Source of the DNA: Desulfobacteraceae bacterium
GTDB taxonomy: Bacteria > Desulfobacterota > Desulfobacteria > Desulfobacterales > ETH-SRB1
NCBI GenBank assembly: GCA_030593145.1
Contig: JAUVHU010000021.1
Coordinates: forward strand, 1-33,704
Direction of reading: 5' to 3'
DNA: 33,704 bases
The notes beneath the pieces are model-generated. The model was not told where the DNA came from, did not search any database, and saw only the letters and a program-made list of their open reading frames with translations. Below are positions 9,772 to 33,704 of this stretch, piece after piece. Each line of letters begins with the position of its first letter. The first letter of the stretch is position 1. Made by a program: the position numbers and the translations under genes.

Positions 9772-9783
9772 CATTTTGGGGGG

Positions 9784-9807
9784 TTTTTACAAATTCATCG
9801 AACTTGA
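9784..9807. repeat. Solo right end of family A element
   Basis: TTTTTACAAATTCATCGAACTTGA, 23 of 24 identical to 9979-10002. Confidence 0.8.
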
Positions 9808-9996
9808 TGGTCTCGTAAAAACTCTTTTGTGAACGACTTTGAGCATTTTGGGGAAAAAGCAATTGAGATGTTCATCGTTAAGAAATGCAAGCTGTTTGAT
9901 GCCGTTAGGCCGAGTTCTTGCATTTTAGATGAACATCTCAATTGCGCCCAAAATGGTCATGAAGTGAACAAAATCGACTTTTTACAAATTCATCAA
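9804..9996 (+). repeat. Family A palindromic element, copy A1
   Basis: TTGATGGTCTCGTAAAAACTC...GACTTTTTACAAATTCATCAA; perfect 18-bp inner stem 9859-9876 / 9928-9945; near-identical inverted copy at 33510-33704. Confidence 0.93.
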
Positions 9997-10133
9997 ACTT
10001 GAGTCTTTTATGAAAAAACTGCCTGTGACTTCTTGACAACTTAAATACACTGACTATAGTTTAGTTGATTAGGGATTTTCACAAAAACACCTATATCCAG
10101 CTTTTTGTTGAACATGCCTTTTTATTTTCTTTT

Positions 10134-10294
10134 ACCTAAGTTGAGCGATTTTTTGTGAAGATATGTGCTGAGATCTTGATGCATAAGGATTTGCAAAAAC
10201 CGCCGGCATACTCGTGGATATGTCGAAGATTTTTGCGAAGCCTTTATACGCAAGAGATCGGCGCAGATCGAGTAAAAAATCGCTCAATTTAGGT
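10134..10294 (+). repeat. Family B palindromic element, copy B1 (161 bp)
   Basis: Terminal inverted repeats ACCTAAGTTGAGCGATTTTTT / AAAAAATCGCTCAATTTAGGT plus inner TTGCAAAAAC...TTTTTGCGAA stem. Confidence 0.92.
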
Positions 10295-10318: not shown

Positions 10319-10576
10319 ATGCCCATTTATGAATATGAATGCACAAAGTGCGGTAAAACTGAAGAGGTAATACAAAGATTTTCCGACAAACCTCTAACCA
10401 AATGCAGTCACTGTACAGGAAAGCTTCACAAACTCATTTCCCAAAGCAGTTTCCATCTAAAAGGGACGGGCTGGTATGTAACAGACTATTCGAATAAATC
10501 CCAGCGTACTTCCTCTCCGCCAAAAAAAAAGGAAAAAACATCAACCAAAAACACTGTCAAATCAAACAAAAAATAA
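10319..10576 (+). CDS. FmdB family zinc ribbon protein
   Basis: MPIYEYECTKCGKTEEVIQRFSDKPLTKCSHC...; SD AGGAGG upstream; next to groESL. Confidence 0.92.
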   Translation: MPIYEYECTKCGKTEEVIQRFSDKPLTKCSHCTGKLHKLISQSSFHLKGTGWYVTDYSNKSQRTSSPPKKKEKTSTKNTVKSNKK

Positions 10577-10734
10577 GGCGTTAAAGAAAGCTAAATTAAA
10601 CGACCTTTAAAAATTGGGCGTCAGACTATTTCGGCCGTCGTAGCTACTATGGCAAAGTTTGCTTGTACGCTTTCGTATTGCAATACAGGTTTTGCAAAAA
10701 ATATATAACAAGTCAAAAAAGGAGAATTTTAACG

Positions 10735-11022
10735 ATGAAACTTAGACCATTACATGATCGAATCTTAGTAAAACGTGTTGAAGAAGAAAAACAGACCAAG
10801 GGAGGTATCATCATCCCTGACACAGCCACTGAAAAACCGATTGAAGGCAATGTCATTGCTGTCGGTAAAGGCAAGATTGCTGATGACGGCAAAATAATTC
10901 CACTCGATGTCAAAAAGGGCGACCGGATTCTATTTGGCAAATACGGCGGCACAGAGGTAAAAACCGATGGCGTTGAATATCTGATTATGCGCGAAGATGA
11001 TGTGCTCGGAATAATCGAATAA
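10735..11022 (+). CDS. groES: Co-chaperonin GroES
   Basis: [35 protein letters not shown]...; SD AGGAG; Met at 10735. Confidence 0.98.
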
Positions 11023-11049
11023 TAAACACAATAAACAAATGGAGGATAA

Positions 11050-12723
<1,674 letters not shown>

Positions 12724-17333: not shown

Positions 17334-17834
17334 GATTAAAACTCCTTGTTATTTTCCATACAAATTTATCATACAAATATTATGCCATGTTTACACAACT
17401 TGCTATTAATAAATTCATAAAAAGTGCAATTCATTAGGTGTCAGCTTTTAAGTGTTAGGCGTTAAGGGCTTGATAAAATAGATAATTACTTTAACCAGAA
17501 ACTCGAAACCCATAACCCGCAACATGACAAAATCGACTTTTTACGAAACTGTCTATATTAAAATTATACTATAATATAACAAATGATTTCACAATAATTG
17601 TTATATTATTTTATAGAGGTGTTAAATATTTTTATAGCAAAAAAACAATTACGCCGTTTTTCAGAACCGATGCTACAAAACATAAAATAATGAAAGAGCA
17701 AAAAAATATCAGGATTTTCGTGTCTGCGTACGAACACGCACGGGAGGAGACTGGGAACGAGAGGAACGGAGGTCAGAGGTCGGAAGTCGGAAAAGTAGCA
17801 AACCTGAACCGTGGAAACCATCAATAGTGAACCA

Positions 17835-22933: not shown

Positions 22934-22965
22934 TTGATGAATTCGTAAAAAGCCGAATTCATCAA
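22934..22965. repeat. Minimal family A hairpin
   Basis: TTGATGAATTCG-taaaaagc-CGAATTCATCAA; perfect 12-bp stem, 8-nt loop. Confidence 0.85.
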
Positions 22966-31409: not shown

Positions 31410-32657
31410 CTATGTGTTCATTGAATTTAAAAATGATTTATTATCCTTTGTTCTGCTCATTTTATCAAGCAAAAATTCCATACAGTCAACAGGATTTAAT
31501 GAAGAAAGAAGTTTTCTTAATATCCATACACGATTAAGAGTTGCCTCGTCAAGAAGCAACTCTTCTTTCCTTGTGCCTGATTTCTTGATCTCAAACGCAG
31601 GGAACAAGCGTTTATCGGCAAGTCTGCGATCTAACTGAATTTCCATATTCCCTGTGCCCTTGAATTCCTCGAAAATCACATCATCCATACGACTTCCAGT
31701 GTCAACAAGAGCAGTTGCTATTATAGTGAGACTGCCTCCTTCTTCGATGTTCCTCGCGGCGCCGAAAAAGCGTTTTGGACGCTGAAGAGCATTTGAATCA
31801 ACTCCTCCTGAAAGAATCTTTCCGCTGGGAGGCATTACCGAATTATAGGCGCGCGCAAGCCTTGTTATACTATCAAGCAGGATAACAACATCCTTTTTAT
31901 GTTCCACCAGCCTTTTTGCTTTCTCGATAACCATTTCAGCTACCTGGATGTGTCTTTCAGAAGGTTCATCAAAGGTTGAACTAATAACCTCGGCATCGAC
32001 TGACCGCTGCATGTCTGTAACTTCTTCAGGCCGCTCATCAATAAGAAGAATAAACGGAATAATATCTTTATGGCTGGCAATAATACTGTTTGCGATATTC
32101 TGCAACAGCATCGTCTTCCCTGACCTTGGCGGAGAAACAATCAAACCTCTCTGCCCAAACCCGATAGGAATCATGAGATCCATTATTCGTGTAGAATAAT
32201 TATCGGAATTGGTTTCAAGATTTATTTTCCTGTCAGGGTAAAGGGCAGTCAAATTGTCAAACAGTATTTTCTCTCTGGCTTTCTCCGGATCTTCAAAGTT
32301 GACAGCCTCCACTTTTAACAGGGCAAAATAACGTTCAGTCTCCTTTGGCCGCCGGATCTGACCCGATACCGTATCACCTGTTCTGAGATTAAACCGGCGT
32401 ATCTGTGATGGCGATACATATATATCATCGGGACCAGGCAGATAGTTATAATCCGGCGCTCGTAGAAACCCAAACCCATCAGGTAGTATTTCCAGTGTGC
32501 CTTCACCAAATATCATGCCATTTTTCTCGATCTGGGCCTGAAGCAATGCAAAAATAAGTTCCTGCTTTCTCATTCCGGCTGCACCGTCAACCTTAAACTT
32601 CATTGCCATCTTGGTTAGTTCACTAATTTTCTTGTCTTTTAGTTCAACTATGTTCAT
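31410..32657 (-). CDS. rho: Transcription termination factor Rho
   Basis: [80 protein letters not shown]. Confidence 0.99.
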
Positions 32658-32759: not shown

Positions 32760-33108
32760 TTGATGAATTCGTAAAAAGTCACGAATTTAACTATAGATGG
32801 CTAAGTAAAAAGTTTCATATACAAAACGTAGTGGTTTTTCAGAATCGAAGGCATACATAAAAAGTCATTCTTGGCAACTCTGTAATTTCTTTGTATTTAA
32901 ACCCGTCTGCGTTCATCTGTGCCTGCCCCGTGGATCAGGATAATCGTACTGGGGTAAATCTATAGCCGAATAGTTTCAAAATTTCTTGTTTTCATCCGTT
33001 CACCAGCGGGCTATAGCCTTTAGTGAAAAACTCGCAACCAAGGGTATTTTTGCAAAATCGATTTGCTCAAAATGACAAGTAGAAGAGACTTTTCACGAGG
33101 TCATCATA
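32760..33108. repeat. Degenerate family A-like region bounded by inverted ends
   Basis: TTGATGAATTCGTAAAAAGTC (32760-32780) and GACTTTTCACGAGGTCATCATA (33087-33108); interior differs from A1/A2. Confidence 0.55.
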
Positions 33109-33509
33109 GTTGAAGCTTCTTTTTATGTTTTCTTCACTACGGAGTTCGAAAAACATAAAAAATATCAATTAAAATCTTCGAATCGTTTAATCATCGGATC
33201 GTGATTTATGGATGAGAATATGATTATTTTTTGGTTTTTTAGAAGAAATTAATGAGGTATTCTCTTCAGCAGGCGAGTTTAATGCCTAACTTTTATTAAA
33301 GGAATCCGTGTAATTTACTAAATAAAAATATATAGTAATATATTATATTGTCAAGTCCTATTAAACTTTTATTTTAAACATTTTATTTGAGCTTTATAAT
33401 AAATGTCAAGAAAATTTGTTAGAATTGCTGTTTTGATGATTGACATTTATGTGTTTTGAAGAGTATTTTGCAAATTTCAGATAATATCTAACACTTAATA
33501 AATTCAACT

Positions 33510-33704
33510 TTGATGAACTCGTAAAAAGTTTATTTTGTTCACTTCATGACCATTTTGGGCGCAATTAAGATGTTCATCTAAAATAATGCAAGAACTCGGC
33601 CTAACGGCCTCAAACAGCTTGCATTTCTTAACGATGAACATCTTAATTGCTTTTTCCCCAAAATGCTCAAAGTCGTTCACAAAAGACTTTTTACGAAGCC
33701 ATCA
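33510..33704 (-). repeat. Family A palindromic element, copy A2 (reaches window end)
   Basis: Reverse complement nearly identical to 9804-9996; perfect 18-bp stem GCAATTAAGATGTTCATC / GATGAACATCTTAATTGC (33561-33578 / 33633-33650). Confidence 0.93.

Follow-up and report, generated by a model that had tools for sequence, protein, structure and literature searches.

Bacterial MITEs are short, non-coding elements that are present in many copies, fold into stem-loops, have terminal inverted repeats and insert at AT-rich intergenic targets, which they duplicate (PMC10969869). One of them, the Chunjie element of Geobacter uraniireducens, is given as 178-235 bp in the same source. The Correia/NEMIS and ERIC/IRU elements are palindromic mobile elements of 100-200 bp with 5'-TA-3' termini, and their transcripts form long hairpins (PMC2229807). 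REPs are palindromes of 20-40 nt that are linked to Y1 transposases (PMC3116915, PMC2817692, PMC3733652).

The DNA analyzed here (the window, a stretch of 33,704 nucleotides) comes from a Desulfobacterales draft genome of 2.48 Mb in 111 contigs and contains two copies, A1 and A2, of a repeated element. We consider it very likely that this is a non-autonomous MITE of 189 bp, an irregular hairpin from end to end, that is moved in trans by a DDE-type enzyme with a 6-bp duplication and whose copies then decay. In our judgement the family, and the superfamily of ends to which it belongs, are genuine, previously undescribed within the literature searched, and ordinary in kind.

Copies, ends and target duplications

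The initial annotation placed A1 at 9804-9996 and reported a nearly identical inverted copy, A2. Both copies are present and are 93% identical, but the range given for A1 was too wide. Alignment of all copies, which begin with GATGNNNTCGTAAAAAGTC and finish with its inverse GACTTTTTACGANNNCATC, gave a unit of 189 bp (GATG...CATC) at 9806-9994, and the extra 2 bp on each side belong to the target duplication. The features are as follows, in window coordinates.

9806 to 9994, plus strand: copy A1, a 189-bp hairpin MITE; ends GATG...CATC set by aligning approximately 40 genomic copies; 91-97% identity to the others
33512 to 33703, minus strand: copy A2, 192 bp, in the opposite orientation to A1; 93% identical by alignment
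9800 to 9805, plus strand: left target-site duplication of A1, GAACTT; 5 of 6 bases identical to 9995-10000
9995 to 10000, plus strand: right target-site duplication of A1, AAACTT; 6 bp, the duplication length of the family
9806 to 9824, plus strand: left terminal inverted repeat of A1, GATGGTCTCGTAAAAACTC; one change from the family motif (motif search, 1 mismatch)
9976 to 9994, minus strand: right terminal inverted repeat of A1, GATGAATTTGTAAAAAGTC (motif search, 1 mismatch)
9859 to 9876, plus strand: 5' arm of the 18-bp middle stem of A1; 100% complementary to 9928-9945
9928 to 9945, plus strand: 3' arm of the same stem; pairs with 9859-9876
9881 to 9923, plus strand: apical hairpin of A1, consensus AAATTGCAAGCTGTTTGAGGSCGTTAGSCCGAGTTCTTGCAATTT; sequence kept in most related genomes (cross-species alignment)
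9781 to 9799, minus strand: decayed end of an older neighboring element, a 3-mismatch match; direct repeat 9784-9807 / 9979-10002
33506 to 33511, plus strand: presumed target-site duplication of A2, AACTTT, inner side; read from the sequence, the other side being past the contig end

A2 owes its 192 bp to a 3-bp ATT insertion. It stops at the contig end, so that its outer flank lies beyond the contig.

In its own genome the element matched 40 plus-strand places. Thirty-five of these have a length of 171 bp or more and an identity of 91-100%, and five copies of 140-141 bp are truncated at contig ends. The initial annotation had allowed that the two copies in the window might be the only ones; the genome search that it called for gave approximately 40, which removes that objection and provides the high interspersed copy number of a MITE. 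Several contigs terminate within copies, and the element fragments assemblies of such genomes. Two pairs of copies (L010/L013 and L021/L027) have one flank in common and the other different, which suggests either that copies have recombined or that the repeat has caused a chimeric assembly. The nearest named relatives with the family are Candidatus Desulfaltia bathyphila, a Desulfobacterales MAG and a Deltaproteobacteria MAG.

We assessed the target duplication in 75 copies with both flanks, taken from several genomes. Exact 6-bp direct repeats stood directly outside the unit in 35 of them, compared to a mean of 1.3 for shuffled flanks, and flank identity averaged 0.79 at 6 bp versus 0.31-0.43 at 4, 5 and 7 bp. 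In the alignment of all copies the flanks were random except for an A at flanking base 1 and a T at base 6. Over 83 superfamily elements the insertion target was AT-rich with the consensus ANNNNT (roughly TCANNNNTGA). The element thus carries two further hallmarks of a MITE, a target-site duplication of fixed length (6 bp) and terminal inverted repeats, with GATGNNNTCGTAAAAAGTC at both ends. The terminal motif GAYGNNNTCGTAAAAAGTC had 136 exact occurrences in the genome, and its reversed control had 0.

A superfamily element was also found to split a transposase gene (L188:2050-2200) with an exact AAAAAA duplication. When this element and one repeat were deleted in silico, the reading frame ran on through the site until a later stop. 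Next to A1, the gap between the remnant of the older element (window 9772-9799) and A1 is exactly the 6-bp duplication, giving a tandem layout. Layouts of element, 6 bp and element recur (L014, L059, L061, L068; G163:C1:32996-33039), and the spacing of exactly 6 bp suggests re-insertion at the duplication.

One could suppose that the element is a degenerate host regulatory site (an operator or 5' UTR element) and that AT-rich DNA produces the duplications by chance. The 38 cases with both neighbors called, by crude ORF calling, comprised 13 co-directional, 12 anti-directional and 12 divergent settings, and a single convergent one; the scarcity of convergent settings, and some solitary ends just upstream of genes, would be consistent with such a site. 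However, the duplications are far above those of shuffled flanks, and one superfamily element splits a transposase gene with its AAAAAA duplication. We regard this explanation as extremely improbable.

Copies sit between genes, including next to a Zn-ribbon/groES/groEL cluster. A1 is upstream of the Zn-ribbon protein, groES and groEL (window 10319-12723), and A2 is on the upstream side of rho (window 31410-32657).

Shared ends across the phylum and the search for a transposase

The ends of the element extend well beyond this genome. Among 58 relatives, 40 contain GATGNNNTCGTAAAAAGTC, and G035 alone has 302 copies. A sample of 118 genomes from the phylum had it in 35, one of them with 590 ends. 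Reversed-motif controls in both surveys gave three matches overall. Between these ends lie many different cores of approximately 58-300 bp that are unrelated to each other and in most cases palindromic. We took a MITE to be short (under about 600 bp) and to have no transposase gene; the element itself has 189 bp and carries no gene, and of 91 unique end pairs whose duplications agree in at least 5 of 6 bases, 84 span 58-291 bp. The few longer end pairings (1-4 kb) contain unrelated genes. More decayed superfamily ends or elements with other interiors occur elsewhere in the window (17408-17553, 22936-22954, 32762-32780 and 32796-33105).

Plasmid and phage collections contained no real match to the element. 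A scan of viral contigs gave 20 stretches, some with short superfamily elements, and in these stretches no transposase was recognized. In the literature we found no published description: TCGTAAAAAGTC appeared in no paper, and a search on MITEs in sulfate reducers gave no match. These data define a phylum-wide MITE superfamily for which neither a published description nor a transposase was found.

The initial annotation proposed that the element, having no coding frame, needs a helper in trans, as REP/REPIN or MITE elements do, and suggested looking for a Y1 or DDE transposase with the same ends. That search, which covered chosen families and genomes and part of the contigs, found none. In a flank scan of up to 15 selected MITE-bearing genomes, no DDE_Tnp_1, rve, Y1 or ISNCY_1 gene (PF01609, PF00665, PF01797, NF033593) lay between such ends. 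Single ends were also traced inwards, some of them in genomes that are closed or have few copies; what followed was in every case a short element or unrelated genes. One candidate autonomous copy, L194, was checked and dismissed. Draft assemblies often lose multi-copy insertion sequences, and the absence of an autonomous copy is therefore weak evidence.

On the other points the proposal held: approximately 40 copies, 6-bp duplications and short gene-free elements support a non-coding, repeated, mobile, MITE-like element that requires a helper in trans. Staggered insertion with a fixed duplication points to DDE-type transposition, and from the 6-bp staggered insertion alone we infer a DDE-type enzyme. 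Mobilization would occur in trans: a trans-acting transposase would recognize the ends GATGNNNTCGTAAAAAGTC / GACTTTTTACGANNNCATC and insert the element at AT-rich ANNNNT sites, producing the 6-bp duplication, after which the inserted copies would decay like ordinary DNA.

Alternatively, the element could be of REP/REPIN type and depend for its movement on a Y1 (RAYT) transposase with a single-stranded hairpin as target. The hairpin architecture, the high copy number and the intergenic location all fit, and the source genome does possess Y1 genes whose products, at 321-324 aa, are RAYT-like in length (C96:7734 and C43:23685). However, the Y1 genes of this genome do not carry the ends, the Y1 loci of G000, G001, G007, G033 and G035 had no paired ends round the gene, and the element has exact 6-bp duplications and long terminal inverted repeats, features that Y1 elements are not known to produce. 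The duplications, the inverted repeats and the lack of its ends round Y1/RAYT genes together assign the element to the MITEs and rule against the REP/REPIN membership that had been considered. We strongly disfavor it.

The hairpin and its conservation

All three stacked stems described in the initial annotation, the 18-bp perfect stem, the AAATGCAAG/CTTGCATTT stem and the GCC-GTTA-GGC apex, were found in the predicted fold of A1. The stability of this hairpin is well above chance expectation (DNA z -6.2, RNA z -7.9), and none of 200 shuffles equaled it.

The stems covary between subfamilies, and strongly so between species. In the comparison between species, 33 of 53 inner pairs had two-sided changes, compared to 9-15 in slid controls, so that arm substitutions are correlated as a maintained fold requires. 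A stem model built from the source genome alone had 81% of cells paired (Watson-Crick) in 13 outside clusters, versus 20-37% when one arm was shifted 1-3 bases, and the six strongest APC-corrected mutual-information column pairs were all stem pairs. Judged from these sequence comparisons, the fold has been preserved over the history of the family.

Within genomes the pattern was different. One-sided or mismatched variants outnumbered two-sided ones by 69 to 11 in the source-genome cluster and by 68 to 1 in the G021 copies. This bears on a G-C to A-T swap between A1 and A2 that had been read as a change of both arms at once, and as a sign that the fold is maintained or recopied through a hairpin intermediate. 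The swap was confirmed in the alignment, and the two-sided changes between species uphold maintenance of the fold. Simultaneity does not stand: within-genome changes are mostly one-sided, and the pair concerned (element positions 60/134) is G-C in 25, A-T in 5, A-C in 3 and G-T in 2 source-genome copies, the half-changed forms indicating an inherited lineage marker with intermediates. There was no specific sign of recopying through a hairpin intermediate, although it could have occurred.

Since the fold was kept over the family history, yet variants within genomes are mostly one-sided, we read the structure as kept among source elements, with copies decaying freely once inserted. The hairpin would then be kept because source copies that retain it transpose better, that is, by DNA-level selection at mobilization and not for any host use of each copy. 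Stems that covary across lineages, set against freely decaying copies, make this a testable case of selection during transposition and not by the host.

The main rival to this reading is arm homogenization, either by template-switch quasi-palindrome correction or because subfamilies were born by inverted duplication of one transposon end; both are compatible with a MITE. Other families with the same ends are also palindromic with unrelated cores, as expected if element formation makes palindromes. On the other hand, all subfamilies keep the same irregularities (the outer, middle and apical stem offsets), which correction would tend to erase, and mismatched intermediates are common. Homogenization is a substantial possibility, though one that we lean against.

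It is also conceivable, if improbable, that the folded hairpin is part of the mobilizing machinery's target, and that a phylum-wide system with a transposase of undescribed type moves any palindromic core with such ends, by structure and not sequence. If true, hairpin recognition would explain the covarying stems, the unrelated palindromic cores under one end set and the absent autonomous partners.

Alternatively, the hairpin of the MITE might be kept as a structured RNA transcript (an mRNA stability element or sRNA), as proposed for NEMIS and ERIC. The RNA fold is very stable, the apical loop sequence is conserved between species, and all 35 copies from the source genome, as well as 32 of the 44 related ones, fold better as the plus strand than as the minus strand. 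However, G-T and A-C changes, counted as distinct variants over all families, were equally frequent (64 versus 60, p 0.79), and this speaks against selection at the RNA level; the source genome by itself had seemed to show a G-U excess (115:21 cells relative to A-C), which was gone in this count. Orientation relative to neighboring genes was random (13 co-directional, 12 anti-directional), and copies decay mainly through one-sided changes. No Rfam family reached threshold on the element, the best sub-threshold match scoring 28.8 bits with 249 required. Preservation as a transcript therefore seems doubtful to us, and the equal variant counts, random orientation and lack of an Rfam fit make a host RNA function unlikely. 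Over the whole window, Rfam gave two tRNAs and nothing else.

An NNN triplet in the terminal repeats (window 9810-9812 and 9988-9990 in A1, and the same in all copies) is approximately ten times more variable than other parts of the element, in this family and in related ones. In family A the between-copy difference per site was 0.58 in the left and 0.42 in the right triplet, whereas interior sites gave 0.055 and the remaining sites of the ends 0.047; in a related family it was 0.53 and 0.64 versus 0.12. Intact target duplications indicate that many copies are young, so this variability is not simple post-insertion decay. Rewriting of the triplet at each transposition was dropped as a rule because a 150-bp family of another genome has both triplets fixed in 21 of 21 copies with intact duplications. 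The likeliest explanation is that the triplet drifts freely in long-lived source lineages while the remainder is constrained; a local mutational mechanism could also be responsible.

A second hairpin, ACCTAAGTTGAGCGATTTTTT, lies at window 10134-10154 / 10274-10294, with 21-nt arms that are 95% complementary. Contig C48 has a similar sequence, AAAAAATTGCTCAACTAAGG, beside an incomplete copy of family A, and the two may represent another repeat family.

Comparison with known systems

With REP/REPIN sequences and their RAYT enzymes the element has in common a hairpin, a high copy number and the need for a helper; it differs in its terminal inverted repeats and 6-bp target duplication. The Correia/NEMIS and ERIC/IRU elements are of similar size and palindromic mobile form, but where those have 5'-TA-3' termini this element has GATG...CATC and a 6-bp ANNNNT duplication. 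Geobacter uraniireducens, the host of Chunjie, belongs to a related phylum. Going by its description, Chunjie is likewise a MITE of approximately 200 bp that occurs in tens of copies and has conserved repeats, both inverted and direct. Finally, the element shares with bacterial MITEs in general the features listed at the outset, and differs in that no related insertion sequence was found here and that one set of ends, phylum-wide, spans many unrelated palindromic cores.
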